Shown: in pieces, positions 23,470 through 41,684 of the stretch
Numbering within the stretch: position 1 is the first letter of the stretch
Layout of the letters: each line of letters opens with the position of its first letter
Assembly (NCBI GenBank): GCA_028819345.1
Contig: JAPPLW010000063.1
Coordinates: forward strand, 1 to 42,910
Reading direction: 5' to 3'
Length of the DNA stretch: 42,910 nt
Source of the DNA: a bacterium
GTDB lineage: Bacteria > Actinomycetota > Acidimicrobiia > Spongiisociales > ZC4RG35
Notes under the pieces: generated by a model
Seen by the model: the letters and a program-made list of their open reading frames with translations, nothing else
Told to the model about the DNA's origin: nothing
Databases searched by the model: none
Translations under genes and position numbers: made by a program

Positions 23470-25194
23470 TCAGGGCGCCGGCCGGTCGAGACGCGCCATG
23501 GTGGGAGTCGGGGTCCCGTCCGCCTCCACCCTCACCCCGAATACCCGGTCGGCTTGTTCGGCCGAGACGTATTCGTCCAGCACGTCGTCGCGCACCGACT
23601 CGATGGGCCGGTCCAGCGGGTCTCCCCAGCCGCCCCCGCCGGCCGAGAGGTTGTGAAAGGACTCTCCGGCGTTCATGGAGAAACGCTCCATCCGCGCCCG
23701 GCGCTCACGGTCGGTGCCCGGCCACACCACCATGGCGTTGGTCTCCGGTTCATGGCCGCCCCGCAGCCCCCACGGCTTGGTCTTGGTCTTCTTCTTCATG
23801 GATAGCACTTCCCCCGGCGCCAGGAATTTTACCTGACGGGAGACCCCCAACCCTCCCCTCCAGCGTCCCGCCCCGCCCGAGTCCCGTCGCAACTCCAGGC
23901 GCTCGTGGAAGAGAGGCGACTGGTGCTCAAGAACCTCGATGGAGGTGTTCCGGACCGAGGTGGTGGATGGGTGCTGGAGGGCGTTGGCCCCGTCGTGGCT
24001 GGGAGTGGCTCCCCACCCAAGCCCCTCGTTGTTGCTGACCAGGTACATCTCGCCGGTGTGCGGGTGGGTTCCCACCGCCATGAACCCCGGCAGGTCGGAG
24101 CCGGAGCTGGCATGGATCCCGTCCATTCCCTTCGCCAGCGCCTTGTTGATCAACTCGAAGCCCGCCATCCCGGTCCAGAGGGTGTAGGTGGCGGACGGGT
24201 ACACCGCATGGAAGAGGTTTCCGGGAGGACAGACCACCTCGAGTGGCTGGTAGTGGCCGTGGTTGGCGGGCGTGTCGGGGGTGGTCAGGGACTTGAAGAC
24301 GTTCTTCGCCAGGCTCAGGGTACACCCGAACGGCATGTTCACCGGACCCGGCACCGCACCGTCGGAGTCGGCGAAGTCCACAGTGAACCTCTCGTCGTCG
24401 ATGGTGACTGTCACCGCCATCCTGATCAGATCGTGAGAGATGCCGTCGTCGTCCAGCCAGTCGAAGGCCGACCACTTCCCGTCCGGCATGGCCCGCACCG
24501 CCTCTGATGCGGTCTCCGCGCCGTGGGAGATGATCTGGTTAATCGCCCGGTCGACGGTGGCCAGGCCGAACTTCTCCCAGATCTGGTGGAGCCGGCGCTC
24601 TCCCACCCGCAGGGCGGCAATCTGGGCATGGAAGTCTCCGGTGATGTTCACCGGCAGGCGGGAGTTGTATCGCAGGATGTCCATCATCTGGGAGTCCACC
24701 TCGCCCTTGCGGACCAGCTTGACTGCGGGCAGGATCAGGCCCTCCTGGTGCATCGAAGTCGAATCCAGCACGTAGCCGGGGTCCTTGGCGCCCAAGTCCA
24801 TCCAGTGCGCCCTCACCGCCAGGTAAGCGTCGGGCAGATCGCTCCCCTCGGAGAACACCGGCGCGAACATCATGGCGTCGGCCGCATGGGCGCCGCTCCA
24901 GTAGGGGTAGTTGAGTATCACCACGTCGCCCGGGTGCAGATTCTCGACCCCCACCTTCTCCACCCCCTTGTGAATGGCGTAGTCGTTGGCGCCCAGGAAG
25001 AAGAGGATCCCCGACGACTCCGATATCAGCCGGCGGTCCCGGTCATACATGGATATCCCGAAGTCCAACACCTCATAGATCACTGGATTGAAGGCGGTCC
25101 TGACCAGAGTGCGGCGCATCTGCTCGGCAGTGGAGTTCAGATAGTGACGGATCACTTCCACGGTGGCGCCATCCAGGGCAGCGCCGGTGTTCAC
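23470..25194 (-). CDS. Hydantoinase B/oxoprolinase family protein, third tandem copy
   Basis: The 574-residue HyuB-type subunit works with HyuA in ATP-dependent hydrolysis of cyclic amides such as N-methylhydantoin or 5-oxoproline. Family marks: [15 protein letters not shown] at the start, [68 protein letters not shown], and the C-terminal [15 protein letters not shown] and [15 protein letters not shown]. Despite an open frame extending further upstream, the start is taken as GTG 25194, since it aligns with the other two copies and lies 17 bp after the previous stop. It is the most divergent of the three at visible positions (e.g. DFADSDGAV and NAGESFHNL). uvrA follows on the same strand. Confidence 0.93.
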
Positions 25195-25211
25195 CCCATG
25201 TTCTCGGTCGT

Positions 25212-26936
25212 TCAAGATTGCCGCCGGCGCCGACGCGCCCCGGTGAGTGTGGTGGTCCCATCCGGACTCACCCTCACTCCGTACACCCTCTCCGCCTGAT
25301 CCCTCGACACATACTCGTCGAGCACGTCCTCGCGCACCAGTTCCATGGGCCGGTCCAGGGGATCTCCCCACCCTCCCCCACCGGCCGAGAGGTTGCGAAA
25401 CCGATCTCCCGGCTCCATCGTGAAGCGCTCCATCCGCGCCCGGTGGGCCCGGTCGGTATCCGGCCAGACGATCATGGCGTTGGTCTCCGGCTCTTGGCCG
25501 CCCCGGAGCGCCCACGGGCGGGTCTTGGTCTTCTTCTTCATCGACAGCATCTCGCCGGTGGCCAGGAACCTGACCTCGCGACGGATCCCCACGCCGCCCC
25601 GCCACCGGCCGGCCCCGCCCGAGTCCCGTCGCAACTCCAAGCGCTCGTGAAATATGGGCGAGCGGTGCTCGAGGACCTCCATCGAGGTATTCCGGACGGC
25701 GGTCATGGCGGGGTGCTGTATGGCGTTGGCGCCGTCATGATGCGGAGTAGCGCCCCAGCCGATCCCCTCGTTGTTGCTGACTGCATACAACTCCCCGGTC
25801 TCGGGATGGGTCCCCACCGCCATGAAGCCCGGCTCGTCCGCACCCGATGAGGCGGCTATATGTTCCATCCCTTTGGCCAGCGCCTTGTGGGCCAGTTCGA
25901 AGGCCGCCATGCCGGTCCAGAGCGTGAAGGTGGCTGCCGGGTATACGGCGCGGAACAGGTTGCCCGGCGGACAGGTCACCACCAGCGGCTGGTAGTGGCC
26001 GTGGTTAGCGGGGGTGTCGGGAGTCGTGAGGGACTTGAACACCGCCTTGGCCATGCTCAGAGTCCTTCCGAACGGCATGTTCACCGGCCCGGGGACCGCC
26101 CCTGCGGAGTCCCCGTAGTCGACGGTGAACCGGGTCCCCTCGATGGTCACTGTCACCGCCATCCTGATCAGGTCATGGGAGATGCCATCGTCGTCCAGCC
26201 AATCGGAGGCCGACCACCGCCCGTCCGGCATGGCCCGCACCGCCTCGACTGCGGTCTCCGCACCGTGTTCGATGATCAGATTGATCGCCGCGTCCACCCT
26301 GGGCAGGCCGAACTTCTCCCAGATCTGGTGGAGCCGCCGCTCCCCCACCCGTAGCGCCGCCACCTGGGCGTTGAAGTCTCCGATAATGGTGTCGGGCATG
26401 CGGGAGTTGTATCGCAGGATTTCGATCATCTGGCTGTCCACCGCGCCGCGGTTGATCACCTTGACGCCCGGCATGATGAGGCCCTCCTGGTGCATGGAGG
26501 TGGAGTCCAGCACGTAACCGGGATCCTTGGCGCCCAGGTCCATCCAATGGGCCCTCACCGCCAGATAGGCGTCGGGCGCATCGCTCCCTTCTGAGAAAAC
26601 CGGAGCGAACAGCATGGCGTCGGAGACATGGGCGCCGCTCCAGTACGGGTAGTTGAGCATCACCACATCACCGGGATAGAGGTTCTCGGCCCCCACCTTC
26701 TCCACCCCCTTGTGAATCGCGTAGTCGTTGGCGCCCAGGAAGGAGAGGAGGCCCGAGGACTCCGAGATCAGCCGACGGTCCCGGTCGTACATGGAGATGC
26801 CGAAGTCCAGCACCTCGTAGATCACCGGGTTGAAGGCGGTCCTGACCAGGGTCCGGCGCATCTGCTCAGCGGCGGAGTTGAGATAATGGCGGATCACCTC
26901 CACGGTGGCGCCGTCCAGCGTGGGGCCTTCTCTCAA
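25212..26936 (-). CDS. Hydantoinase B/oxoprolinase family protein, second tandem copy
   Basis: The 574-residue HyuB-type subunit is collinear with both flanking copies from [15 protein letters not shown] to [15 protein letters not shown] 26936 was chosen, with GGGGA upstream, 16 bp after the first copy's stop; an ATG two codons away is out of frame. Distinguishing positions include [42 protein letters not shown] and MAAFELAHKALAKGMEHI. No frameshift or stop is seen, so it appears functional. The role and partners are as for the other HyuB copies; only one HyuA is available nearby. Substrate unknown. Confidence 0.93.
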   Translation of the reverse strand: MREGPTLDGATVEVIRHYLNSAAEQMRRTLVRTAFNPVIYEVLDFGISMYDRDRRLISESSGLLSFLGANDYAIHKGVEKVGAENLYPGDVVMLNYPYWSGAHVSDAMLFAPVFSEGSDAPDAYLAVRAHWMDLGAKDPGYVLDSTSMHQEGLIMPGVKVINRGAVDSQMIEILRYNSRMPDTIIGDFNAQVAALRVGERRLHQIWEKFGLPRVDAAINLIIEHGAETAVEAVRAMPDGRWSASDWLDDDGISHDLIRMAVTVTIEGTRFTVDYGDSAGAVPGPVNMPFGRTLSMAKAVFKSLTTPDTPANHGHYQPLVVTCPPGNLFRAVYPAATFTLWTGMAAFELAHKALAKGMEHIAASSGADEPGFMAVGTHPETGELYAVSNNEGIGWGATPHHDGANAIQHPAMTAVRNTSMEVLEHRSPIFHERLELRRDSGGAGRWRGGVGIRREVRFLATGEMLSMKKKTKTRPWALRGGQEPETNAMIVWPDTDRAHRARMERFTMEPGDRFRNLSAGGGGWGDPLDRPMELVREDVLDEYVSRDQAERVYGVRVSPDGTTTLTGARRRRRQS

Positions 26937-26952
26937 CTCATTCCCCGGGCAA

Positions 26953-28680
26953 TCAGGACGCCTGCCGCTCCAGACGCGCGGCGGTGGGAGTGGCGGTTCC
27001 GTCCGGCTCCACCCTGACCCCGTACACCTCCTCGGCCTTCTCCACCGACACGTATTCGTCGAGCACGTCCTCGCGGACCAACTCGATGGGACGGTCGAGA
27101 GGGTCTCCCCATCCTCCGCCGCCCGCCGAGAAGTTTCTGAAGCCCTCTCCAGGCTGCATGGTGAACCTCTCCATGCGCGCCCGGTGGGCCCGGTCGGTGT
27201 CCGGCCACACGATCATGGTGTTGGTGGTCTCCGGCTCATGGCCGCCCCGGAGCGCCCACGGGCGGGTCTTGGTCTTCTTCTTCATCGACAACAGTTCCCC
27301 CACCGCGACCCACGTCACCTCGCGGCAGACGCCCAACCCTCCCCGCCACTTCCCGGCGCCGCCCGAGTCGCGGCGCAACTCCAACCGCTCGTGAAAGATG
27401 GGAGACTTGTGTTCCAGGACCTCCATGGAGGTGTTGCGGACCGCGGTGGTGGAGAGATGCTGCAGAGCGTTGGAGCCGTCGTGTTCGGGGGTGCCGCCCC
27501 ACCCGATCCCCTCGTTGTTGCTGACCGAGTACATCTCCCCGTTGTCCGGATGGGTGCCCACCGCCATGAACCCGGGCTCGTCGGAACCCGAGGAGGCTGC
27601 GATGTGGTCCATCCCCTGAGCCAGCGCCTTGTTGATCAACTCGAAAGACACCATTGTCGACCAGAGCGTGTAGGTGGCGGCCGGGTAGACCGCATGGAAG
27701 AGATTCCCGGGCGGACAGATCACCTCGAGGGGTTGGTAATGGCCGTGGTTGGCGGGAGTCTCCGGTGTGGTCAGCGATTTGAATACGTTCTTTGCCTGGC
27801 TCAGGGTGCTCCCGAACGGGATATTCACCGGACCGGGGACGCCCGGGTCGGAATCGCCGTAGTCGACGGTGAACTTGTCCCCTTCGATGGTGACCGTCAC
27901 CGCCATCCTGATCAGGTCATGGGAGACCCCGTCGTCGTCCAGCCAGTCATGAGCCGACCACTGTCCGTCCGGCATCGCCCGTACCGCCTCCCGGGCAGTC
28001 TCTGCGCCATGGGAGATGATCATGTCGATGGCCGCATCGACGTCGGCAAGTCCGAATTTGTCCCATATCTGACGAAGCCGCCGCTCCCCCACCCGCATGG
28101 CGGAGATCTGAGCGTTGAAATCTCCGATGATGGTCTCGGGCATCCGGGAGTTGTACCGCAGAATGGCCATGATCTGAGGGTCCACCACACCCCGTTTGAT
28201 CAATTTGACGGCCGGCAGGATCAAACCTTCCTGATGTACGGAGGTGGAGTCCAGCACGTACCCGGGGTCCTTCGCCCCCAGGTCCATCCAATGGGCCCGC
28301 ACCGCCAGGTAAGCGTCGGGCAGGTCGCTTCCCTCGCCGAACACCGGCGTGAACAGCATGGCGTCGGCGGCGTGCGCCCCGCTCCAGTAGGGAACGTTGA
28401 TGATCACCACATCCCCGGGGTGCAGGTTCTCGATTCCCACCTTCTCCACGCCCTTGTGGATGGCGAAGTCGTTGGCGCCCAGGAAGGAGAGAATCCCAGA
28501 CGACTCGGATATCAACCGGCGGTGCCGGTCGTAAACGGAGATACCGAAGTCCAGCACCTCGTAGATAACCGGATTGAACGCGGTCCTCACCAGGGTGCGG
28601 CGCATCTGCTCGGCGGTGGAGTTGAGATAGTGGCGGATCACCTCCACGGTGGCGCCGTCCAGCTTCGGGCGGGCGCTCAT
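26953..28680 (-). CDS. Hydantoinase B/oxoprolinase family protein, first tandem copy
   Basis: The 575-residue HyuB-type subunit directly follows hyuA; ATG 28680 overlaps the hyuA stop (ATGA), so the two are translationally coupled and probably form the primary HyuA-HyuB pair. All blocks listed for the third copy are present. Distinguishing positions include SVYDRHRR, HAADAMLFTPVFGEG, GVVDPQIMAILRYN, DPGVPGPVNIPFG and one inserted Thr in PETTNTMIVW. The frame is intact. Confidence 0.94.
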   Translation of the reverse strand: MSARPKLDGATVEVIRHYLNSTAEQMRRTLVRTAFNPVIYEVLDFGISVYDRHRRLISESSGILSFLGANDFAIHKGVEKVGIENLHPGDVVIINVPYWSGAHAADAMLFTPVFGEGSDLPDAYLAVRAHWMDLGAKDPGYVLDSTSVHQEGLILPAVKLIKRGVVDPQIMAILRYNSRMPETIIGDFNAQISAMRVGERRLRQIWDKFGLADVDAAIDMIISHGAETAREAVRAMPDGQWSAHDWLDDDGVSHDLIRMAVTVTIEGDKFTVDYGDSDPGVPGPVNIPFGSTLSQAKNVFKSLTTPETPANHGHYQPLEVICPPGNLFHAVYPAATYTLWSTMVSFELINKALAQGMDHIAASSGSDEPGFMAVGTHPDNGEMYSVSNNEGIGWGGTPEHDGSNALQHLSTTAVRNTSMEVLEHKSPIFHERLELRRDSGGAGKWRGGLGVCREVTWVAVGELLSMKKKTKTRPWALRGGHEPETTNTMIVWPDTDRAHRARMERFTMQPGEGFRNFSAGGGGWGDPLDRPIELVREDVLDEYVSVEKAEEVYGVRVEPDGTATPTAARLERQAS

Positions 28681-30713
28681 CGAACCACCAGATTCCCCAG
28701 CCGGTCGGGCACCGCGATCTGATCGCTGTGAACGATCGTCACCGAGGTGGGCTCGCGGATGATGGCCGGACCCTCAATCTCTACTTCGGGTTGAAGCAGG
28801 CTCCGCTCATAGATCGGGAACACCCGGCGCTCCCGGGTGGCGAAGTCGAAGGCATGGCGCTCTCCGACCCGGCTGGCCGTTTGATCGATCCCGGAGGATT
28901 GGTCACCGAGATGCCGGGAGGGTTTGTCCAGGAGACCGACACCCCTGACCCGGGCGGTGAGGATCTGCACTTCCTCGTTCAGTTTGTGCCCGTAACGCTC
29001 CAGGTGTTGTTGGTGGAACTTGGCGGCCACCGACTCCTGGTCGTCGGCCTCCTCCAACTCGACCGACAGGGTGTGCTCCTGACCGTTGTAACGCAGATCG
29101 AGATGTCTCATGAACACCCGGTTCTCCGGCGGCACCGACTGCGCGGCCAGCACCCCGTCGGCCTCGCTCTCGAGTTGAGCCAGAACTCCCTGCATCTGCG
29201 CCAGGGTGGCGTCGTCCAGCATGGTCAGCACCGTCTGGCCCACGTCGTACTCCAGATCGGACATCAGCATCCCCCAGGCGGAGAACACGGCCGGAGCGGC
29301 GGGAACCACCACCTCGGGCAACTCCATCTCCCTGGCCAGTAGCGGGGCCAGCATCGGGCCGGCGCCCCCGAAGGCCACCAGGGAGAACTCTCTCGGATCG
29401 AGACCCCGTTCCACAGTGATCTCCCGGATGGCCCCCACCGTGCGGGCCAGCAGGACGTCGAAGACCGAAGCGGCGGCTCGTTCGGTGGACATGCCCAAGG
29501 GCTCTGCCAGTTTCTCGGTGACACCCCTCACGGCCGCCTCCCGGTCGAGGCTCATCTCGCCACCCAGGAACTCGTCCGCCGCCAGGTACCCCAGGCAGAG
29601 GGCGGCGTCGGTTACGGTCGGCTCGGTATTCCCTCGTCCGTAGCAAATCGGCCCGGGAACCGCTCCGGCGCTATGCGGCCCCACCCGGAGGAGGCCCTTG
29701 TCCATCCAGGCGATGGAACCTCCCCCGGCCCCTATGGTGCGGATGTCGAACACCGGGATGCGGATCGGCAGGGCCTCTATCTCGGCCTCATAGACCTCGG
29801 TGGGCGCCCCGTCCACGATCACGCAGGCGTCCAGGCTGGTGCCTCCCACGTCGAATGAGATCAGGGAAGACCGTCCGGTGGACTCTCCCAGGCTGATAGT
29901 CCCGGCGATACCTCCCGCCGGGCCGGAGAAGACGGTGAGCAGGGGTGACACCCGGGCGATTTCCGAAGTCATCGCCCCGCCGGCCGAACGCATTATCAGA
30001 AAGGACCCGTCGAACCCCCGGGCTCGCAACCGCTCTTCCAGGTCGGTGAGATACTTGCCCAGGATGGGCCTTATGTAGGCGTCGGCCACCGCCGTGGAAG
30101 TCCGTTCGTACTCGTGGTACTCCCTCACCAGATCGATCGAGACGGAGACCGACAGATCGGGAAAGGCACTGGTCAGGAGGCTCTTGGCGGCTTCCTCGTG
30201 TTCGGTGTTGGCATAGGAATGAAGAAAGCAGACCGCCACCGATTCCACTCCCCGATCCGAGAGGAGGCGCCCGGCCTCTACCACCGCCTGGCGGTCGAGG
30301 TCCGTCACCACCTTGCCCCGGTGATCTATGCGCCCCGGGACCCCCACCGTGTGACGCCTCTTGACCAACAATTCCGGGCGGCGGTACTGGAAGTCGTACT
30401 TCGAGCCGCTGGGCAGATCTCCCCTGGCGATCTCGAAGATGTCCCGAAAGCCCGCATTGGTGATGATGCCGGTCACCGCCCCCTTCCGCTCCAGGATGGC
30501 GTTGAGCCCCAGGGTGGTGCCGTGGGTGTAGACCGAGGCCTCTTCCAGGGAGGCTTCGGTGGCCTGCGTGGCGGTTATCACGCCGTCCGCCGGAGCCGCG
30601 GGAGTCGTGGGAGCCTTGCGGACCGTGATCTCTCCGCTCTGCTCGTTGTAGGAGATGGCGTCGACGAAGGTCCCGCCTATGTCCACCGCCAAGCGGTATT
30701 TGCGTTCAGTCAT
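28677..30713 (-). CDS. Hydantoinase A/oxoprolinase family protein
   Basis: The 678-residue HyuA-type subunit carries an actin-like (ASKHA) ATPase fold that activates a ring amide by phosphorylation for HyuB. The N-terminal phosphate-binding loop reads RLAVDIGGTFVDAI (residues 7-20), then YTHGTTLGLNAILERKGA, YEYERTSTAV-like HEYERTSTAVADAYI, ISFDVGGTSLDACV, IGAGGGSIAWMD and GPGPICYG-like VPGPICYGRG. The C-terminal part from about 510 is the hydantoinase-A extension. The start is ATG 30713 with a GAGAAAGAAG patch. It follows the deleted amidohydrolase by 26 bp. HyuA/HyuB homologues include N-methylhydantoinase, oxoprolinase and acetophenone/acetone carboxylases, so the reaction is not fixed by sequence. 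Confidence 0.94.
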   Translation of the reverse strand: MTERKYRLAVDIGGTFVDAISYNEQSGEITVRKAPTTPAAPADGVITATQATEASLEEASVYTHGTTLGLNAILERKGAVTGIITNAGFRDIFEIARGDLPSGSKYDFQYRRPELLVKRRHTVGVPGRIDHRGKVVTDLDRQAVVEAGRLLSDRGVESVAVCFLHSYANTEHEEAAKSLLTSAFPDLSVSVSIDLVREYHEYERTSTAVADAYIRPILGKYLTDLEERLRARGFDGSFLIMRSAGGAMTSEIARVSPLLTVFSGPAGGIAGTISLGESTGRSSLISFDVGGTSLDACVIVDGAPTEVYEAEIEALPIRIPVFDIRTIGAGGGSIAWMDKGLLRVGPHSAGAVPGPICYGRGNTEPTVTDAALCLGYLAADEFLGGEMSLDREAAVRGVTEKLAEPLGMSTERAAASVFDVLLARTVGAIREITVERGLDPREFSLVAFGGAGPMLAPLLAREMELPEVVVPAAPAVFSAWGMLMSDLEYDVGQTVLTMLDDATLAQMQGVLAQLESEADGVLAAQSVPPENRVFMRHLDLRYNGQEHTLSVELEEADDQESVAAKFHQQHLERYGHKLNEEVQILTARVRGVGLLDKPSRHLGDQSSGIDQTASRVGERHAFDFATRERRVFPIYERSLLQPEVEIEGPAIIREPTSVTIVHSDQIAVPDRLGNLVVR

Positions 30714-30739
30714 CTTCTTTCTCGCTGGAGCCGTAAATG

Positions 30740-31120
30740 TCAGGAAGCCGATCGGTCATCTCGCACCACGCGACCAGACTGCATCACCAGGGAGATGCCT
30801 CTCATCGCCGACACGTCCGACAACGGGTTTTCATCCACCGCCACCAGATCAGCCATTTTGCCCTGCTCAACAGTACCGATCTGCGACTCCAATCCCAAGA
30901 GGCGAGCAGCGTTGGAGGTGGCCCCGGCCAGGGCCAGTTGGGGGTGAAGCCCGGCCCCTTGCATGAGTTCCATCTCATGCACCGTGACCGAGGTCCCCCC
31001 GATGGGATCTCCGGGGGGATAGTCGTTGACCAAGGTAACCCCCGCCGATATCTCCCCACTGACGCCGTCTAGGACCTGTCCGCGGACAACATCAACCACC
31101 CTGGCGTCGGTCAACCACAC
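30740..31120 (-). pseudogene. Amidohydrolase paralogue with large internal in-frame deletion
   Basis: The 126-residue frame is a copy of the adjacent 393-residue amidohydrolase (31248-32429) lacking its middle. Residues 1-25 (MWLTDARVVDVVRGQVLDG...) match the parent's start, then at about residue 26 the sequence jumps to AGVTLVNDYPPGDPIGGTS, matching the parent near residue 290 to the end (TSNAARLLGLESQIGTVEQGK, VMQSGRVVRDDR). About 267 residues are missing, with the HTH metal motif, the carboxylated Lys region and both later His. Only the Asp of the GTDYPP motif region remains, as NDYPP. It cannot be an active amidohydrolase. The GTG 31120 start keeps an AAGGAGG ribosome-binding site and the frame is open, so it might still be translated. 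The deletion kept the frame and left a short similarity at the junction. Confidence 0.9.
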
Positions 31121-31177
31121 CTCTAGCCTCCTTGTCCGAGTCTTTCGGGCGGGCCGCCCACTGTGCAGGTGTTAGCC

Positions 31178-31220
31178 ATGGCGTCGAATAGGGTCCCGCC
31201 TATGTCCACCGCTAAGCGGT
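31178..31220 (-). pseudogene. Relic of the hyuA 5' end
   Basis: These 43 bases match 30655-30697 (the first codons of hyuA) at 39 of 43 positions. On the minus strand they read HRLAVDIGGTLFDAM, compared with YRLAVDIGGTFVDAI. The start codon is gone (CTA in its place by alignment) and the similarity ends within a few codons. It lies between the full and the deleted amidohydrolase genes, exactly where a second hyuA would lie if an amidohydrolase-hyuA unit had been duplicated in tandem. Confidence 0.85.
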
Positions 31221-31247
31221 GCTTCTCTCCTGTTAGGGAGGTGGACG

Positions 31248-32429
31248 TCAGGAAGACGGCCGGTCGTCGCGGACCACCCTGCCGGACTGCATGACGAAGG
31301 AGATGTTCCGCATGGCCGCCACACCGTCGAGGGGGTTGTCTTCCACAGCCACCAGGTCGGCCACCTTTCCCTCCTCGACTGTGCCGATCTCCGACTCCAG
31401 TCCGAGCAGGCGGGCGGCGTTGGAGGTGGCGCCTTGGAGCGCCAGATGGGGGTGGAGGCCGGCGCCCTCCATAAGTCCCATCTCGTACACCGCCACCGAG
31501 GTGTCCTCGATCGGGTCTCCGGGGGGATAGTCGGTGCCGTTGACCATGGTCACTCCCGCTGCGATCGCACGCTGGATGCTGGCCAGGTGCATCGGTCCCA
31601 CCTCCAGCGACGACTCGATCTGAAACTCCTCGAACCCCTTCCACCGCATCCACTCCTGGGAACGGGTAACGCACAGGGTGGGAGTGAGGAAGACTCCCTT
31701 CGCCGCCATCCGGCCGGCGGTGTCGGCGTCCAGGTCGTAGGCGTGCTCGAAGGAACGGATCCCGGCGTCCAGCGCCCAGTTGATGGCCAGCGATGATCCG
31801 GCGTGGGCCACGACGTAGGTGTCGTGGTGTCGCGTGGCGCTCACCGTGGCCGCCATTTCCTCGCGGGTCATCTCCGGGTGGTCGAACTGCTCTCCCAGCC
31901 CGGCGATGCCACCGGTGATGAAGACCTTGATGTGGGAGCATCCCGCGTCCAACTCGGCCAGGGCGGCGTCCCGGAAGGCCTCAGGTCCGTCGGCCAGGAC
32001 GCTCCCCATGCCGTCGCCGTGACCGCCGGTGGTGGAGAGCGCCCTGCCGGCGCCCACGATCCGGGGAACGTCGGCCCATCCCGCCCTGGCGGCCTCCGCC
32101 AGCAGCAGGTCGGCCTGGTTCTGTTCATGGACGCAGCGGATGGTCGTCACACCCGCCCGCAGGGCGTCCTGGGCCCGCTGGTAGGAGCGGAGCACCGTCA
32201 GCCCGGGGTTCTCATTCAGGTCTATGGAGGAGAAGGGGTACACCACCGACAGGTGGGTGTGGACCGATATGAGTCCGGGGACCAGGTAACGTCCGCCCAG
32301 GCTCATCCGCTCCCCGGCGCCGGGTTGGCGCTGGATGGATCCGATCCGCTCCCCCGAGATCTCCACGCTCACCCCGTCCAGGACCTCGCGTCTCTCTACA
32401 TCAACCACCCTGGCGTCGGTCAGCCACAT
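31248..32429 (-). CDS. Amidohydrolase family protein (imidazolonepropionase/prolidase-like)
   Basis: The 393-residue metal-dependent TIM-barrel hydrolase has a complete set of family residues: GLISVHTHLS (two metal His, about residue 56), HIKVFITGG (carboxylated or bridging Lys), VVAHAG and RSFEHAYDL (His ligands), and VNGTDYPPGDP (catalytic Asp). N- and C-terminal strands form the small beta-sandwich (MWLTDARVVDVE... and VEEGKVADLVAVEDNPLDG). ATG 32429 has AAGGAGG upstream that overlaps the end of the glycosyltransferase gene, with 3 bp between stop and start, so it is translationally coupled to it. The substrate is unknown; it probably hydrolyses an amide or cyclic amide, in keeping with hyuA/hyuB downstream. 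Confidence 0.92.
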   Translation of the reverse strand: MWLTDARVVDVERREVLDGVSVEISGERIGSIQRQPGAGERMSLGGRYLVPGLISVHTHLSVVYPFSSIDLNENPGLTVLRSYQRAQDALRAGVTTIRCVHEQNQADLLLAEAARAGWADVPRIVGAGRALSTTGGHGDGMGSVLADGPEAFRDAALAELDAGCSHIKVFITGGIAGLGEQFDHPEMTREEMAATVSATRHHDTYVVAHAGSSLAINWALDAGIRSFEHAYDLDADTAGRMAAKGVFLTPTLCVTRSQEWMRWKGFEEFQIESSLEVGPMHLASIQRAIAAGVTMVNGTDYPPGDPIEDTSVAVYEMGLMEGAGLHPHLALQGATSNAARLLGLESEIGTVEEGKVADLVAVEDNPLDGVAAMRNISFVMQSGRVVRDDRPSS

Positions 32430-32432
32430 TCT

Positions 32433-35063
32433 CTACCTCCTTGTTGCTCCTTCGAAGCTCTCGACAACGGTGCGGGCCCTGGCTAGCCAGGAATTCTCTT
32501 CTCCCCTGCGGCGAAGAGTATCGCGGATCTCCGGGTTCTTGGAGTCGGCCAACGCCAGATCCAGGGCGCCGGACATGCCCGCCGCGTCCGAGTATGAACG
32601 GACCTCCGGGAAAGCCACCACCTCGGGCATCTCGCTGCAGACCACCGGCTTTCCTCCCGCGAAGTACTCGAAGAGCTTGAGCGGGGATGTCGACCGGGTG
32701 ATCTCGTTCACCGCGAACGGGATCATCGCCACATCGAAGCACTGGAGCCACCGGGGCAGGTCCCCGTAGGGCTGGGCGGAAATCCACTCGACGTTGGGGA
32801 GGTTGAACAGCGGGCGGTGCCTGGTGCTCCGATCGTAGGGAGGGCCGATCAGGAGAAAGCTCCAGTCGCCTCGCGTCTCGGCCACCTCGGTGAGCAGGTC
32901 GTAGTCCAGCCACCGGGCGATGGCGCCGTAGTAGCCGGCGATGGGCCGGCCCTCTGCCAGGAGACGCTGGAGGACCGGATGGGCCGGAGAGGAGACCTGC
33001 CAGTCGGCGAAGTGCTCGAACTCCACCGCGTTGGGGAGGTAGACGGCGTCGGGACGCGGTTGGCTCGCCCGTTCCAGGAGGCTCCGGGCGCTGGCGGTGA
33101 TCATCCCGGCATCGGCCAGTCCGAGGGAGTGAAGCCTTCTCAGTTTGTTCAGGTCGTGGCCGTCGAAGACCTCGATCTCGTCTATCCAGTCGTACACCGT
33201 CCGGGTGCCCTCCGGGTAGCGGGACGCCTGCTCCCAGTTGTAGGTGATCGCCCACACCAGGGGATCGGGCAACTGGTGCAAGGCATCCTGGGGTCCGTTG
33301 TAGAGGAACAGCCGGGGCTCGATCTCCTCCCATCCGGGCGGGCTCTGCTTGGAGTTGTCATAGATCACCGTGTATCCCAGGCGGGAAAAGGCCTGGGCGA
33401 GTTGCTGGGGTCGTTGGAACAGGTGGATGTACCACTCGATCGTGGGGAGGAACACCACCACCCCTTTGCTTTCCGCGATTCGGTCGGTGACCTGGGGGGG
33501 AATCGGCTGTCCCGAGGGCTGGGATGTCCGGAGGCCGGGCGTCTCGGCGCCAGGCAGTACGCGGGCCATTCGGCGACGAAGCCGGTGGCGAAGCCTCCAG
33601 TACCTGGTGACCAGCTTGATGGCGCGGGTCTGGCGGAGATTGTCCAGTTCCAGTTGGAGAAGGTCCCCTCTTCGCTCGGCGTGCGCGTGCTGATCATGGG
33701 CTGCCTGCAACTGCGCCCGGGCGGCCTCCGATTCCCGGATCAACCGGTTTCGAAGCTCCAGGTTGTCCGCCAGAGTCTCGTCCAAATCCTTCTGGGTCCC
33801 AGCCAGGTTCCGGGTCAACGCCAGCGCGATCTCCTGCTGGATCTCCTGGTAAGAAGTGGTCTGCTGTGCTCCCGAGTGCTCGCCAAGCGCCTCCTCGATC
33901 AAGGATGGGACGGCACGGGCCTTCCTCAGCATGGCCTCCGCCCACTCGTACATCATGTGGGATTGGTCGGCGTAGTCCTCCCAGAGGCTTCGGAGTGTTT
34001 CCGGTAATTCGTCCCATGACTCCGGCTCATCGGGAAGACACCAGGGTCCCAGTCGGAGTTCGGCGGCCATGCGGGCCACCTTGGGGTCGTAGGAGATCGA
34101 TACGGACGGGGTGCGTCCCATCGCCGCCAGGATCATCCCGTGCAAGCGCATGTTGAGAGCCATGTCGCTTCGCCCGAAGACCGTGATCATTTGCCCCGGG
34201 CTGAGGTCAGGGGGGGTCAGATGAATGGCGGAGGAGCGCATGAGTCCGGCGATCCGCTCGCAACAGCGCCGGTCGTCGAAGTCATCGGATCCCAGTTCCT
34301 GCATGGGCGCCAACAGCACCGATCCCCCGTTCTCCTCAGCGAAGGCGTCCAGGGCCCGGGCGAGATTGCGTTCCCGTTCGGCCTGGGTCTCAGCCGTTCC
34401 CCAGGACCGGGGCGCCACGGCCACCAGGGGTCGGGGAAGGTCGGAGATGGTCTGGTTCAGCTCGGGCGGCAGATCGACCCGGTCAACCAGCCAGGCAGGA
34501 TCGCCCACCACCGGGGCATCGGTTATGCCGAGCGACTCGAGTTCTAATCGGTCCTGGTCGGTACGCACCGTGAACGCCGAGGCGCTCTCCGCCAATGCCC
34601 TGACCCATTGAGGGGACCGGGGATCATGGAACGGACCGACCCCCACCCCCCAAACCAGGACGGGTGTTCCCGCGGCGGCCGCCGCCAGGGCCGGGGCCAG
34701 ATAGCCGGGGATGTCCGCCGCGTCGCGGCTGAGCGCGTGCTCCGGTAGGAAACCCCACTGATCGGACAGGAGTCCCCCTCCACCCACCATCACCATCCGG
34801 GACCTGTACGCCTCCGACAGCACGGCAGGGACGTCGGCCCGATCCACAGCCTGGACGCCGTGGCTGCGACGGGTGTCCTCCGGATCGCCGGACGCCACGA
34901 CCCACCTTCCATCGGGAAACCTGTCCCGCAAGAGGCTCAGCATCCCGGCTAGGATTGCCTCATCACCGAGGTTCTTGAATCCGTAGTGACCGATTATCAG
35001 TGCGTCGGGCGGGGCCGGGTTCAACTCCGAGTTGTCCGGGCGCACCGAATCGACACTTGTCAC
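32433..35063 (-). CDS. Polysaccharide pyruvyltransferase-glycosyltransferase fusion protein
   Basis: The 876-residue protein joins two enzymes of surface glycan assembly. Residues about 15-400 form a polysaccharide pyruvyltransferase (CsaB-like) domain, with GHYGFKNLGDEAILAGML, MVMVGGGGLLSDQWGF and AVAPRSWG. A coiled-coil and basic linker (about 420-540, QEIQQEIALALTRN ... TRYWRLRHRLRRRM) follows. Residues about 555-870 form a GT-B glycosyltransferase of the TuaH-like type: FLPTIEWYIHLFQRPQQLAQAF, GYYGAIARWLDYDLL, and the nucleotide-sugar motif STSPLKLFEYFAGGKPVV. GTG 35063 was chosen because the longer open frame runs into the divergent M20 gene. Product (inferred): a pyruvylated cell-wall or capsule polymer. 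Confidence 0.88.
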   Translation of the reverse strand: MTSVDSVRPDNSELNPAPPDALIIGHYGFKNLGDEAILAGMLSLLRDRFPDGRWVVASGDPEDTRRSHGVQAVDRADVPAVLSEAYRSRMVMVGGGGLLSDQWGFLPEHALSRDAADIPGYLAPALAAAAAGTPVLVWGVGVGPFHDPRSPQWVRALAESASAFTVRTDQDRLELESLGITDAPVVGDPAWLVDRVDLPPELNQTISDLPRPLVAVAPRSWGTAETQAERERNLARALDAFAEENGGSVLLAPMQELGSDDFDDRRCCERIAGLMRSSAIHLTPPDLSPGQMITVFGRSDMALNMRLHGMILAAMGRTPSVSISYDPKVARMAAELRLGPWCLPDEPESWDELPETLRSLWEDYADQSHMMYEWAEAMLRKARAVPSLIEEALGEHSGAQQTTSYQEIQQEIALALTRNLAGTQKDLDETLADNLELRNRLIRESEAARAQLQAAHDQHAHAERRGDLLQLELDNLRQTRAIKLVTRYWRLRHRLRRRMARVLPGAETPGLRTSQPSGQPIPPQVTDRIAESKGVVVFLPTIEWYIHLFQRPQQLAQAFSRLGYTVIYDNSKQSPPGWEEIEPRLFLYNGPQDALHQLPDPLVWAITYNWEQASRYPEGTRTVYDWIDEIEVFDGHDLNKLRRLHSLGLADAGMITASARSLLERASQPRPDAVYLPNAVEFEHFADWQVSSPAHPVLQRLLAEGRPIAGYYGAIARWLDYDLLTEVAETRGDWSFLLIGPPYDRSTRHRPLFNLPNVEWISAQPYGDLPRWLQCFDVAMIPFAVNEITRSTSPLKLFEYFAGGKPVVCSEMPEVVAFPEVRSYSDAAGMSGALDLALADSKNPEIRDTLRRRGEENSWLARARTVVESFEGATRR

Positions 35064-35088
35064 GACCTCAAGGTTATCACAGCAAGTA

Positions 35089-36363
35089 ATGGGACTCTGT
35101 ATGCAAGTTGACCTGCCTGCTGCCCTGAACGCCGTCGATGACCTGGGGGGATACCAAGGAGAGTTGCTCGCCTCCCTGGTGTCGGCGCCCAGCGTCAGGG
35201 GGGATTCGAGTGACGTGCATGAGTTGTGCGCAGGCGAGTTGGAGAGGGCGGGAATGCAGGTGGATTTGATCACTCCCCGGGTGGGCGAGTTGGAGCGCCA
35301 TCCCGAGTGGAGCCCGCCCGATCCGTCCATCGACGTCGCCGCGCCGGAGCGGTTGGTGAGCGTCCTTGGATCATCCGGTGAGGGACCGGGTATCTTCCTC
35401 TTCGCCCACATCGACACCGAGAGTCCCGATCCCCGGGGGGACTGGGAGACCGACCCCTACCGAGCCACAGAGGTCGGAGGCCGTATCTATGGGGTGGGGA
35501 CCGCCGACGATAAGGCCGGGGTGGTGTCGGTACTGGCCGCCGCTCGGGCGCTACTCCCCCATCTGCGAGGAGTGCGGCTGGTCGTGGGACTGGTGCACGG
35601 AAAGCTGGGGGGTGGGCTGGGGACCCTGCCGACCATGGCGGGAGTGGGAGACGTGGACGCCGCCGTCTACTGCCATCCGGCCGAGACCGGGAAGGGCATG
35701 GCCCATTTCAAGATCGCCACCCGGGGCTTTTTCAACTTCCGCATCGAGACCGAGGGGCGGCGGCCCGCTCCGGTGGAGATCCGCACTCCGATCTCTGAGG
35801 ATCCGCGGCAGGGGGCAAATGCCTTCACCCGGTTGCGGGGAGTCCTGGAGGAAGTCGACCGGTGGGCCGACCGGGAAGGGGTGCTGTGCTCGGTTAACCG
35901 GGTTTCGGCGGGTACCGATCCGATCGTGCTGCCAGAGCGGGCGGTGGCGGAGGGAGCCGTCTGGTTCCGGAACGGGACGGTGGCCGAGGTGTTCGGGAGC
36001 TTGAAGGCGGCTGCTCTGGAGGCCGGCGCCGGGTCCACTCGACTGTTCGGGACGCGGTCCAACCCGGCGGAGATCCCACCCGGTCATCCGCTGGTGGCGG
36101 CCACGACGACGGCCATCGCTGCCGAGACCGGAGTCACGCCCCACCTCTATCCGGCTCACGTGGCCTCAGACATCCGCTTTCCCATCCGGTGCCTGAACGC
36201 GGCCACCGTGGGCTTCGGGGCCCTGGGCGGGAACTTCTACGGCCCGAACGAGTGGGTGGACGCCGAGGATATGCACCGGGCTACCCGGGTGTTGGTCAGG
36301 ATCGTCTCGGCCCGGGTCGAACAGGCGGGCCGGGGGACGCCCTGGCCTCCGGTTGGTGACTGA
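35089..36363 (+). CDS. M20 peptidase-like protein lacking key catalytic residues
   Basis: The 424-residue protein has the fold marks of M20 metallohydrolases (ArgE/DapE/carboxypeptidase). The first metal motif FLFAHIDTES and the second GRIYGVGTADDKAGVV are present, then the lid or dimerisation domain (about 205-320) and a C-terminal GGNFYGPNEWVDAEDM. However, where homologues have the catalytic and metal-binding Glu-Glu pair, this protein has HGKLGGGLGT, and where they have the last His ligand (typically GNAHGPNE), it has GNFYGPNE. Three expected metal or catalytic residues are therefore changed in clean sequence without frameshift. It may be inactive, regulatory, or use another chemistry. 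The start is uncertain: ATG 35089 or ATG 35101, neither with a good ribosome-binding site. It diverges from the glycan gene with only about 25 bp between them. Confidence 0.8.
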   Translation: MGLCMQVDLPAALNAVDDLGGYQGELLASLVSAPSVRGDSSDVHELCAGELERAGMQVDLITPRVGELERHPEWSPPDPSIDVAAPERLVSVLGSSGEGPGIFLFAHIDTESPDPRGDWETDPYRATEVGGRIYGVGTADDKAGVVSVLAAARALLPHLRGVRLVVGLVHGKLGGGLGTLPTMAGVGDVDAAVYCHPAETGKGMAHFKIATRGFFNFRIETEGRRPAPVEIRTPISEDPRQGANAFTRLRGVLEEVDRWADREGVLCSVNRVSAGTDPIVLPERAVAEGAVWFRNGTVAEVFGSLKAAALEAGAGSTRLFGTRSNPAEIPPGHPLVAATTTAIAAETGVTPHLYPAHVASDIRFPIRCLNAATVGFGALGGNFYGPNEWVDAEDMHRATRVLVRIVSARVEQAGRGTPWPPVGD

Positions 36364-36376
36364 GAACTCGGTTCTC
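36362..36376 (+). terminator. Hairpin overlapping the M20 gene stop codon
   Basis: GAGAAC-TCG-GTTCTC is a perfect 6 bp stem beginning within the TGA. No U-run follows, so it is only a weak terminator candidate. Confidence 0.3.
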
Positions 36377-36467
36377 GGAGATCGTCATTGGATGTCCGGC
36401 GGGAGGGCCGCATGAACACTGGATATCGGTTGTGGGAAAATAGCGCAGTATTTGAGGGTGTCTAGCA

Positions 36468-36496
36468 TTGTTTTGTCACACCCCATGTAGTACATT
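36468..36496 (+). promoter_or_regulatory. Candidate leaderless promoter of the HNH gene (TTGTTT-N17-TACATT)
   Basis: TTGTTT at 36468-36473 and TACATT at 36491-36496 are 17 nt apart, and the -10 box ends 6 nt before ATG 36503. No Shine-Dalgarno sequence is present. Confidence 0.5.
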
Positions 36497-36502
36497 GATG
36501 CC

Positions 36503-37762
36503 ATGGGAGTTGAAGAGTCGAGAGGCCGACCCGCAGACGGAGGTCGGGTGTCGGATCGCAACCGGGCCAGGTTCGTGCCGCCCGCGGCTTCGCTGTCCGA
36601 GGCGTCGATAGCGGACCTGCGCGAACAGATCCGCTCCATCACCCGGGCAGAGTCCCAGGCCGCGGCAGCCCGGGGGAAGGTAGCGGCCGAGTACGCCCGC
36701 CGACTGGGGCAGAAAGCCGCCGAGAAGATGGTCCGTAAACAGTCGGGACAATCGGCGCGGGGCTCGCGTACAGAAGTCGAAGTGGCCGACAAACTCAAGA
36801 AACTGCCGGGCACCAGACAGGCCTTCGAGGACGGCCAGATCAGTTACGGTCACGCCCGGATCATCGCCGACACCGCCGACCGGGTTGGGATCGATGAGGA
36901 CGAACTAGTCCAAAAGGCCAAGAAACAGCCGGTGGACGTGTTCGCTCACACTGCCCGCCAACACGAACAACAGAGATCGGAGGACGACGGTTTGTCCAAG
37001 CTGGAGGGCCAGAAAAAGGCCCGCAAGGCTTGGATAAGGACCGATCGCTCCGACGGGATGGTGGTGTTGGGGGGACGGTTCGACCCGATCACGGGCGCTC
37101 TGATCAAGGACGCTCTGTCGGTCCGGACCGACCAGATGTGGAGAAAGGAAGACCCCGAGCGGAGACCCACCACCGCTCAGCGCATGGCCGACGCCATAGC
37201 CGGCCTCCTGTGCGAACCCGGCACGACCGAGTCGGGGAAGGAGGAAGCAGACAGGTTCAAGCGTCCGGGAGCCACGCTGTTACTGATAGCCCATTAAGAC
37301 GCCGAGGGCCGGAAGATCAGAGACGCCACCCTCGCCGACGGAACGCCGGTCCCCGTGGCGGTCTTCCGGGACATGGCTTGTCAGGGGAAGATCGTTCCCT
37401 CCGTTTTCGACACCCGCGGCCAACCCCTGTGGGTGGGAATGAGCAAACGCCTGGCCACCCGGGCCCAGCGTCTGGCGTTGATTGCCCGCGACCGGGGGTG
37501 CGTGGGGTGTGGCGCCGATCCGGCATGGTGCCAGGCCCATCACATCGTCCCCTGGGAAGCGGACGGTCCCACCGACATAGACAACCTGGTCCTCCTGTGC
37601 AGCCGATGTCACCACCAGGTCCACGACGACGGGTGGCGAGTCCAACAGTCCCCCGACGGGAAACGAAGACTCCGACCCCCCGCCAAAGGACACCGCCCGC
37701 CGCCGTCCAACAAGATCCGGCGGCGCCGAACCGCCAAACCCAAAACCAAGCTGTTGTTGTGA
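36503..37762 (+). pseudogene. DUF222/HNH endonuclease (13E12-type) split by a nonsense codon
   Basis: One reading frame of 420 codons is interrupted only at 37295-37297 (TAA). Codons 1-264 encode the helical DUF222 domain (SLSEASIADLREQIRS ... TADRVGIDEDELVQ ... MVVLGGRFDPITGALI ... TTAQRMADAIAGLL). The frame then resumes directly with DAEGRKIRDATLADGTPVPVA, and the HNH nuclease follows: CVGCGADPAWCQAHHIVPW ... NLVLLCSRCHHQVHDDGW, with both Cys pairs and His residues intact. A basic tail ends at 37762. One substitution, for example from TAC or TAT, would restore it. Actinobacterial DUF222-HNH genes are multicopy and mobile-element-like (REP13E12 of mycobacteria). A downstream start near 37355 could express the HNH part alone. 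Confidence 0.88.
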
Positions 37763-37932
37763 AAACCCGAACCAGGCCGCGAAACAACCCTCCCCCACAG
37801 GCCAACTTTGGTCGCCTCGCAGACCCAAACTGACTGTCAGCTACTAGAACAAACACCGTCCGGGCGCCAGAGCTCTACCCGGACCGGCACAACCCAAACA
37901 AGCGAGTCACCAGCCTCACCCGAGCCTGGAAA

Positions 37933-38014
37933 CTCGCGAAAACCAACGGAACGGAGGTGGCGGCGGGAGGGCCCATAGGGGACCAAGCCGGACATCCGGT
38001 TTTCGCGACTTAGG
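37933..38014 (+). repeat. Intergenic repeat family, copy A
   Basis: It is bounded by inverted arms CGCGAAAACC (37935-37944) and GGTTTTCGCG (37998-38007), perfect over 10 bp with a 53 bp GC-rich interior. It lies between convergent genes. The rest of the 37763-38041 gap is without a recognisable gene. Confidence 0.65.
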
Positions 38015-38041
38015 TTTTGTAGGTTGGTTGGCTACCGGAGG

Positions 38042-38797
38042 TTACGCGATGGTCTGGCCGGCGTCCAGGTAGATGGTGGTGCCGGTTGCCATCCGGGAGT
38101 CGTCGGAGGCCAGGAAAACCGCTGCTCCTACGATGTCTTCGGGGACGCCGATGACTCCGAACGGAATCATGGATAGCCGGTAGGCGCGGAACTCCGGGTC
38201 GGCCAGGTCCTCGCGGTTCAGGTCCGTCTCGATCAGACCCGGTGCGATGGCGTTGGCCCGGATCCTGTGAGGAGCCAGTTCGGACGCCAGTTGGCGAGTG
38301 AGCATCCGCACGCCACCCTTCGCTACGCAGTAGTGGGTCAGGTCCCGGCCCGCCAGCGTGTCGCCCGCAGAGGACATGTTGATGATCACCCCGCCGTCGC
38401 CCTGGCTGACCATCTGTTTGGCAGCCGCCTGGGAGCACAGGAAGAATCCCTTGAGGTTCACCTCGAGGATCCGGTCCCACTCGGACTCCTCGATTTCGAG
38501 GAAGGGCGTCCGGATCAGGATGCCCGCGTTGTTCACCAGGATGTCGATCCTTCCGAACCGGTCCACCGCGGCCGACATCAAACCGGCCACATCCGAGGAC
38601 GAGGAAGTGTCGGCCTGCACGGCTATGGCTTCCGACCCCATCGCCTCGATCTCGGCCACCGCCGAGTCGGCGGCTCCCTGATCGCTGTGATAGTTGACCA
38701 CCACCTTCGCCCCTTCCCTCCCGTATCCCAGGGCGATGGCCCTCCCAATGGAACGGGAGGACCCGGTGACTACCGCAACTCTGTCTTTCAGTCGCAT
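38042..38797 (-). CDS. SDR family oxidoreductase (FabG-like)
   Basis: The 251-residue short-chain dehydrogenase/reductase oxidises or reduces a secondary alcohol or ketone with NAD(P). The Rossmann glycine motif is TGSSRSIGRAI (residues 11-21), followed by VNNAGI (about residue 88), the catalytic Ser in INMSSAGD (about 143) and the YxxxK pair in HYCVAKGG (about 156). The C-terminal PGLIETDL and GTTIYLDAGQTIA are typical. All catalytic residues are present. ATG 38797 has AGGAG upstream and lies 13 bp after the nicX-like stop, so the two form an operon. It probably acts on a product of that pathway. An N-terminal relic of a second copy exists at 40084-40160. Confidence 0.95.
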   Translation of the reverse strand: MRLKDRVAVVTGSSRSIGRAIALGYGREGAKVVVNYHSDQGAADSAVAEIEAMGSEAIAVQADTSSSSDVAGLMSAAVDRFGRIDILVNNAGILIRTPFLEIEESEWDRILEVNLKGFFLCSQAAAKQMVSQGDGGVIINMSSAGDTLAGRDLTHYCVAKGGVRMLTRQLASELAPHRIRANAIAPGLIETDLNREDLADPEFRAYRLSMIPFGVIGVPEDIVGAAVFLASDDSRMATGTTIYLDAGQTIA

Positions 38798-38810
38798 GGA
38801 TTACTCCTAA

Positions 38811-39851
38811 CTACTCCAACTCGAATCCGGGCACCACGAAACTCCCCCGATCAATGATCTGGGTATCACCAACCGCTATGGAGTGGTTGCGAGTGGGGAT
38901 GTCGAAATGGAAGTTCACCCGGTTCTGGCCGCCCAGCTTGTGGGTGAAGTTGGCGCCGAATGCAATCAGCATGTTGCCGTAATAACTCTCGGTGTCCATC
39001 ACTCCCCCGCCTTCCCAGAAGCGAAGGCCCAGGGCGTTCCAATTGGCTCGATGCTCGTACCCCCAACCGATGTGAGACACACCGTAGGCCCGCTTGTCCT
39101 TGGGCAACTCGAAGAAGTCCTTGAGCAGCCGCATGTCGGCGCCGCCATCCATGGAGACGATGCTTCCTTCCCGCAACTCCATACGGATCGGCTGTTCCAC
39201 ATACTTGCCCATCGGCAGCAGAGCATCACCCGCATCTATCACCAAGGTTCCCTCGGCCGAGTCCTCCAAGGGCGCCAAGCCGCACTGTCCCGAAGGCCAG
39301 TGATCCCACCGTCCCTGCTGGTCCGTGTAGCCATACTGGCATCCCAGCGGACGGCCCGTGTACCTGACCGTGAAGTCGCTCCCGGCATCCGACCAAACCC
39401 GCATGGTGTCTGAGGTCGCCAACAGTTCCATGCTTCTTTCGCCCCGCTTGCGGATCTCAGGAAGGGGGAACATCCGGCGTAGGTGGTCCTCAGGCTCCTC
39501 GATCATCAGGGAACGGACACCCGCCGCCAAGGCCTCATTATGAGCATCGGAGTAGATCCAATGGGACCCCATACTGGCCAGAAAACCCACCACCAGGTCG
39601 CAACCCTTCCAAGCATCGACGATGGTACGCGACTTCATCCACGAGTCGTCAGCGGCCACCATGATCTGAAAGAAATCACCACCCAGCACCCTGACCGCTC
39701 CCATCAAAGCCGTGATGTAAGCCGGGTTGCTCTGAGTGTTGGTGAAAGCCATAACCGTCTGCCCGGGGCCGACCCCGCACAACTCCATATGATCTCGGAA
39801 CATCGGCACCAACTCGGCGCCGGCGGCCGAAGTAGTGGGGACTCTACGCAA
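38811..39851 (-). CDS. NicX-like protein (2,5-dihydroxypyridine 5,6-dioxygenase family), copy 1
   Basis: The 346-residue protein resembles NicX, the iron-dependent enzyme that opens the ring of 2,5-dihydroxypyridine in nicotinate breakdown. Matching blocks are YTGRPLGCQYGYTDQQGRW followed by DHWPSG, EDSAEGTLVIDAGDALLP, YGVSHIGWGYEHRANW, MDTESYYGN and HFDIPTRN. In NicX, as I recall, the iron ligands are the His of SHIGWG and the His and Asp of the HxDIP motif; all are kept. Substrate residues may differ, so the ring substrate is not certain. The start is TTG 39851 by alignment with copy 2, with AGGAGG upstream. It pairs with the SDR gene downstream. About 32 of 346 residues differ from copy 2 by my count. 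Confidence 0.8.
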   Translation of the reverse strand: MRRVPTTSAAGAELVPMFRDHMELCGVGPGQTVMAFTNTQSNPAYITALMGAVRVLGGDFFQIMVAADDSWMKSRTIVDAWKGCDLVVGFLASMGSHWIYSDAHNEALAAGVRSLMIEEPEDHLRRMFPLPEIRKRGERSMELLATSDTMRVWSDAGSDFTVRYTGRPLGCQYGYTDQQGRWDHWPSGQCGLAPLEDSAEGTLVIDAGDALLPMGKYVEQPIRMELREGSIVSMDGGADMRLLKDFFELPKDKRAYGVSHIGWGYEHRANWNALGLRFWEGGGVMDTESYYGNMLIAFGANFTHKLGGQNRVNFHFDIPTRNHSIAVGDTQIIDRGSFVVPGFELE

Positions 39852-39881
39852 CGGTCTCCTCCTTGGGAAAGTATTGGCTCT

Positions 39882-39887
39882 ATCGTA
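39882..39887 (-). promoter_or_regulatory. Candidate -10 box (TACGAT) of nicX-like copy 1
   Basis: TACGAT on the minus strand lies about 30 nt upstream of TTG 39851. The same box occurs at 41247-41252 before copy 2. No clear -35 is present. Confidence 0.4.
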
Positions 39888-40083
39888 GCCCTCCCGACCC
39901 TGCCTCCCCCATGGACGGCCTACCTCCCTTTGCTCGGTGCAAGGTCGGTCGTTCCTTCCTGCAAGCCACATGCGCGCACCGAGACACATGGGCCGGTTCA
40001 CCACCAACAACCGCCGGGCGGCCCTCAATCAGTAGTAGCTTCTTTGCCGCTCGGGCCTCCGGGGAAGTTAGGGGACAGTTTGG

Positions 40084-40160
40084 CCGTATCCGAGGGCGAT
40101 GGCCCTCCCGATGAAACGGGAGGATCCGGTGACCATCGCAACTTTGTCATTCAGCTTCGT
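40084..40160 (-). pseudogene. SDR gene 5' relic
   Basis: These 77 bases match the first codons of the intact SDR gene (its start at 38797) at about 65 of 77 positions. On the minus strand they read KLNDKVAMVTGSSRFIGR and onward for a few codons; the ATG has become ACG. The remainder of the gene is gone and the sequence to 39852 holds nothing else that I recognise. The position directly downstream of nicX-like copy 2 mirrors that of the intact SDR after copy 1, so the two are the remains of a duplicated nicX-SDR unit. Confidence 0.9.
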
Positions 40161-40177
40161 GGTGGACGGTGGCTCAA

Positions 40178-41218: not shown

Positions 41219-41246
41219 TTCTTTCCTCCTTCGCTGTTACCGGTTT

Positions 41247-41252
41247 ATCGTA
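41247..41252 (-). promoter_or_regulatory. Candidate -10 box (TACGAT) of nicX-like copy 2
   Basis: TACGAT on the minus strand lies about 28 nt upstream of TTG 41218, matching copy 1. No clear -35 is present. Confidence 0.4.
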
Positions 41253-41684
41253 ACCGCTCGGCGGGGACCCCTTTGGTGTGGAGAGGCCTTTCCTATCGAC
41301 TCGATGAACGAGAGTCGTCATACCGGAACGAGGTCCGCGAAAAAACCAACATCTGATGGGTTGACTCTGTCACAGTCCTGACCAATACTCACAGGAGTCA
41401 CAAACACCTTCCGGTCCGCCCGACGTCGCCGGACCGCACTTTCGAGGAGAAGGTCATAGCCGTCGAAAACATGCCCCTGGCGGGTCCAGCGGCTCGCGTT
41501 TCGACCAATGGAGGCGGTGGCGGGGGTGGGCCCTGGTGTGAGGAGAGTCGGTGCGGTTTTCGCGGGTTAGGGGTGGTTCTCCGCGAGTTTTGCGTAGGCG
41601 GCTCAGGTTTCTCCGGGTGAGGCCCCACCCCTCGGCTCTAGGGCGTCAGTGTGGATAATCATGAGGGGACACTCCAAACGACCA
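41253..41684. other. Gene-free gap with intergenic repeat
   Basis: No coding sequence is supported. A proline-rich frame at 41398-41628 (minus) overlaps the repeat and has no coding character. The repeat at 41493-41572 is listed separately. A related CGCGAAAAAACCAAC fragment occurs at about 41336-41350. Confidence 0.6.
41493..41572 (+). repeat. Intergenic repeat family, copy B
   Basis: It begins CTCGCGTTTCGACCAA and ends GGTTTTCGCGGGTTAGG, with GGAGGCGGTGGCGGGGGTGG between. Copy A has the same order of blocks: CTCGCG, ACCAA, GGAGGTGGCGGCGGGAGGG, GGTTTTCGCG, CTTAGG. Confidence 0.6.

Follow-up and report, generated by a model that had tools for sequence, protein, structure and literature searches.

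In homology-facilitated illegitimate recombination (HFIR) one homologous and one illegitimate crossover together join foreign DNA and leave partial duplications. Join points of tandem duplications have been characterised in engineered strains of E. coli and of B. subtilis, where microhomology was reportedly not required for them (PMC11111574). As for the genes concerned here, PMC5649159 places hyuA and hyuB (COG0145/COG0146) among the symbiont-enriched functions of sponge symbionts.

The locus described below lies in a window of 42,910 nucleotides, i.e. the whole stretch of DNA analysed, which comes from a genome of Acidimicrobiia (G000) and was compared with five other genomes of its genus (G001–G005). 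A search for literature on hydantoinase in Acidimicrobiia sponge symbionts found none; several of the relatives presumably come from MAG sets of sponge metagenomes. In this window a short piece of hyuA stands between two amidohydrolase genes. We consider it probable (about 70%) that this relic is a join scar left by a tandem duplication some 1.33 kb long, which occurred on a chromosome of beta type, that an alpha allele later took the place of the upstream copy, and that the tripling of hyuB was a separate event.

The operon and the hyuA piece inside it

On the minus strand of the window the order is glycosyltransferase (GT), A1, relic, A2 remnant, hyuA, hyuB1-3 and uvrA; from A1 to the three hyuB genes it had been given correctly in the earlier note. 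GT is a pyruvyl transferase/glycosyltransferase gene (32433–35417; Pfam PF04230 and PF13692), and its 3' tail, compared below with the join, holds the ribosome-binding site of A1 and bounds the copied unit on its upstream side. A1 (31248–32429) is an intact amidohydrolase of 393 codons (PF01979). Downstream of the remnant follow a complete hyuA (28677–30713; PF05378, PF01968, PF19278) and hyuB1 (26953–28680), hyuB2 (25212–26936) and hyuB3 (23470–25194, the start being taken from the sequence as the GTG at 25194), each with PF02538. Hydantoinase_A and Hydantoinase_B domains exceed the curated cut-off in HyuA and the three HyuB proteins, and A1 belongs to the amidohydrolase family. None of the five proteins (A1, hyuA, hyuB1-3) reaches the threshold of any named NCBIfam equivalog among the matches listed, and no substrate is assigned to them.

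The segment 31178–31220 forms a direct repeat (D16) with 30655–30697, 39 of 43 bases being identical, and corresponds to nt 17–59 of hyuA. When the first 62 nt of hyuA were compared with all loci by blastn, it was the only second match in the window (E 1.7e-11). Direct repeat and blastn thus bear out the initial observation that a piece of the hyuA start, identical at 39 of 43 bases, lies between the full and the deleted amidohydrolase. Its description as the first codons of hyuA holds in so far as the piece is a 5' one; it covers, however, codons 6–20 and not the very first codons. At the identical site a relic was found in G003 and G004, there with a complete A2. Both retain GTG at the position of the start codon, which in G000 was taken out by a deletion of 15 nt relative to them.

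The relic is decayed. Differences between relics are distributed over the first, second and third codon positions as 11/7/7 (three pairs pooled) and those between hyuA genes as 2/2/28 (six pairs pooled), the pools being different sets of pairs. In terms of variable columns the relic gives 6/5/4 versus 0/0/5 for hyuA of the same three genomes (Fisher p 0.008) and versus 2/1/9 for hyuA of six genomes (p 0.021). Judged by these substitutions the relic evolves as non-coding DNA, and it does nothing now. A functional relic was considered as a candidate and ruled out by the same codon-position pattern.

A2 of G000 (30740–31120, 'beta' lineage) has lost 795 nt and another 6 nt without a shift of frame, so that 126 codons stay open; the larger deletion has CGG at both edges. 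That A2 is a deleted copy, as proposed earlier, is confirmed by the intact A2 of G003 and G004, which looks constrained (dN 0.008, dS 0.15). The lost part covers H57, H59, H209 and H229 (A1 numbering), which from knowledge of the family we take to be likely metal ligands, and with their loss the remnant should be inactive, as predicted from sequence. The 126-codon frame keeps a ribosome-binding site; that both deletions are in frame may be due to chance or to a kept link to hyuA translation.

The copied unit and its join

The suggestion that the segment is a duplication relic was well founded: because G003 and G004 carry it at the same place together with complete A2 genes, it can be read as the join point of a tandem duplication. 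In these two genomes A1 and A2 are both complete and point in the same direction. Between the copies the distal end of the unit (the hyuA 5' piece) is fused to its proximal end, which is GT-tail-like, this likeness being firm only with G002. The undivided order GT-A-hyuA, with a gap of 31–32 nt including the stop codon and with no relic, is found in G001, G002 and G005.

The stretch from relic to A2 (57–61 nt; 31121–31177 in the window) carries the A2 ribosome-binding site and resembles the 3' tail of GT, the gene preceding A1; it appears to be a diverged copy of that tail. In G002 the match takes in the GT stop region and the ribosome-binding site. Local scores against this tail were 34, 43 and 38 versus shuffle maxima of 29, so that none of the 1000 dinucleotide shuffles made for each of the three genomes reached the observed score, and in the whole 17-kb G002 locus the GT tail was the top-scoring place. 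With the ribosome-binding end removed, p-values were 0.014, 0.004 and 0.237. GT tails of other genomes matched more weakly or not at all; with the tail of the own genome the match was weak (p 0.007 in G000) and vanished without the ribosome-binding end.

The starts of A1 and A2 are 1328 nt apart in G003 and 1327 nt apart in G004, which corresponds to one amidohydrolase, the spacer, about 59–60 nt of hyuA and the GT tail. At the join itself, hyuA ...GACGCCAT / GGC..., few bases are shared, and about 20 nt of the join region have no assigned source. Neither further hyuA body nor any hyuB piece was found between A1 and A2 in the three genomes (G000, G003, G004). Given the GT-tail-like stretch behind the relic, the unit copied in tandem would have run from the GT tail through one amidohydrolase to about codon 20 of hyuA, that is over some 1.33 kb, with no whole hyuA or hyuB in it.

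Allele lineages and alternative histories

The amidohydrolase tree places A2 as sister to the one gene that G002 has (98.6/100 when the truncated copy of G000 is left out and 98.5/99 when it is included), and A1 groups with the gene of G001/G005 (100/100; dS from A1 to G001 0.25–0.31). The tree thereby assigns A1 and A2 to two old lineages, alpha and beta. A recent duplication in situ with A1 and A2 as sisters was ruled out by this topology. Examined as direct descendants of the duplication, the two genes were found in two older lineages; the scar is not affected by this, yet A1 is not clearly a sister of A2.

The DNA immediately behind A1 is of another type than the gene itself. The A1 stop codon and the spacer (31221–31250) are of A2/G002 and not of G001/G005 type: all 12 comparisons of the spacer with those of A2 and G002 show resemblance (p ≤ 0.007), and with those of G001/G005 none of six fell below 0.05 (p 0.055 to 0.16), although these shuffles count three genomes separately that are related. 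Positions 6 and 14 of hyuA distinguish G001/G005 from G002, and there the G003 and G004 relics have the base of G002 (in G000 both positions are deleted), these two sites being all that types the relic within hyuA as beta. Because spacer and relic behind A1 are both of A2/G002 type, we infer that the duplication took place on a chromosome with an A2-type (beta) amidohydrolase. Later homologous recombination with a relative would then have replaced the upstream copy, to approximately the stop codon, by the alpha allele (A1), and in G000 the redundant A2 would have lost 795 nt in its middle.

Traces of exchange are also seen in hyuA. In G004 likeness to G002 is seen at nt 6, 14 and 22 but nowhere clearly in the remainder of the first 300 nt; in G000 and G003 the pattern of types is mixed over nt 27–330 (to about nt 300). 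Such switches point to recombination, the breakpoint not being clean. Between G003 and G004 the last two thirds of A1 (loci L031:10714-11892 and L032:11012-12190) are 99–100% identical, hyuA is 89% and GT 81% identical; the near-identity of A1 looks like a recent exchange tract.

One can also suppose that alpha and beta are old paralogues, made by a duplication before the split of G002, in which case the scar would be as old as the A1/A2 split, G002 would have lost alpha, and G001/G005 beta plus the relic. The dS between A1 and A2 (0.79–1.04) is indeed on the order of the values separating G002 from the other genomes for rpoB (1.16–1.33) and uvrA (0.74–0.82), and the grouping of beta with G002 in the tree fits as well. 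We nevertheless regard this history as unlikely, since it needs at least two precise losses, leaves the spacers of G001/G005 unlike the one behind A1, and makes the relic too close to hyuA. Compared with the hyuA start of G000, which is of beta type, the relics differ at 5/44, 10/59 and 12/59 positions. A neutral relic of the age of the A1/A2 split is expected to differ by about 0.36–0.41 against 0.11–0.20 seen (P 0.007 to <0.0001, under a neutral clock, allowing 0.05 for changes in hyuA itself and taking each relic alone); at 44–59 nt the relics are short, and the dating is rough.

According to the earlier note, an amidohydrolase-hyuA(-hyuB) unit had been amplified and partly deleted, so that one unit would have lost its hyuA and hyuB, and the extra hyuB genes came from the same amplification. 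The dS between hyuB paralogues (0.48–0.76 in G000, G001, G003, G004 and G005, 0.74–0.97 in G002) lies near that of A1/A2, as such an origin would have it; yet we find this very improbable. The join leads into GT-tail-like sequence and, together with the start spacing, leaves no room for a complete hyuA or hyuB, of which the interval between A1 and A2 holds no trace in three genomes. Furthermore, in G000 only hyuB itself is repeated, the copies lying tens of bases apart, and in G001 and G002 hyuB is triple without relic or A2, which contradicts a shared amplification. Three hyuB genes are present in five of the six genomes of the genus, and the sixth (G005) shows two before its contig ends in hyuB2. 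As hyuB1, hyuB2 and hyuB3 each form their own clade including the G002 gene (support 99.9/100, 97.1/93 and 97.6/97), the tripling is at least as old as the G002 split; it was an event separate from the amidohydrolase duplication. Among the relatives there was none that had the relic but lacked a second amidohydrolase or extra hyuB, the case which had been named as refuting the amplification. Hardly any weight falls on the idea that a short coding or regulatory element has been retained in the relic region, for instance a leader coupling translation of A1 to that of A2. Open frames of 34 (G003) and 43 (G004) codons and the in-frame nature of the 15-nt deletion in G000 speak for it, but substitutions are spread evenly over codon positions and strike the conserved DIGGT motif. 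The region gave no Rfam match, and scans of it found no promoter-like site.

The three hyuB genes beside one hyuA (23470–28680) are all under constraint (paralogue dN ~0.12, dS ~0.7). A dispersed repeat of ~230 nt, apparently non-coding (41355–41588 in the window), has 7–11 matches in each of the six genomes of the genus, with one copy between hyuB2 and hyuB3 in G003 (L032:3760-4164); the stretch 30600–42910 gave no Rfam match.

Distribution and relation to known systems

Two amidohydrolases occur in three of the six genomes of the genus (G000, G003, G004), and the relic is found in exactly those three, being absent from the three with one amidohydrolase (G001, G002, G005). Trees of rpoB and uvrA disagree on the order of species within the genus, and a single origin of the relic in the ancestor of its three carriers is therefore not proven. 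Across the order, 17 of 138 genomes have an amidohydrolase of closely similar form (E ≤ 1e-120), namely the six of this genus and eleven (12 loci) of one other family, f6. In the class it was registered in 16 of 296 sampled genomes, belonging to the same groups, and among the genomes listed no other f1 genome has it. A search for close relatives on plasmids returned 323 records, all below 60% identity. The arrangement in f6 is a single amidohydrolase, a single hyuA and a single hyuB, with kilobases visible beyond hyuB in 9 of the 12 loci and the contig end reached in G059, G063 and G065. Between the genus and f6 the amidohydrolase-hyuA-hyuB operon (23470–32429) is 81–86% (amidohydrolase) and 79–87% (hyuA) identical at the amino acid level; uvrA, with 69–71% for three f6 genomes, is less alike than the operon. 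The operon has likely been transferred between families.

The finding is ordinary in kind, its modest twist being that the genes flanking the scar seem to have diverged before the scar arose. Divergence of tandem copies, then, need not date their duplication, which is a caution for dating amplifications from operon paralogues, and in this operon the amidohydrolase event is set apart from the tripling of hyuB. We would give even odds to the broader idea that recombination between species of these symbionts maintains two divergent amidohydrolase alleles next to each other: a rather young tandem duplication would have provided a second seat, the allele of another lineage would have taken it, and the scar would date this event apart from the divergence of the alleles.

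HFIR is like the present locus in that it would leave partial duplications. The relic behind A1 is, however, of A2 type, and one-step HFIR into an A1-type chromosome needs an extra step. The portion of PMC5649159 considered here shares with this operon the hyuA/hyuB COGs and contains no duplication history. With the join points of PMC11111574 the present locus shares a hybrid junction, with the end of the unit fused to its start and a piece of the next gene left behind. Unlike those junctions, the present one is old and decayed, and the copies flanking it come from two allele lineages.
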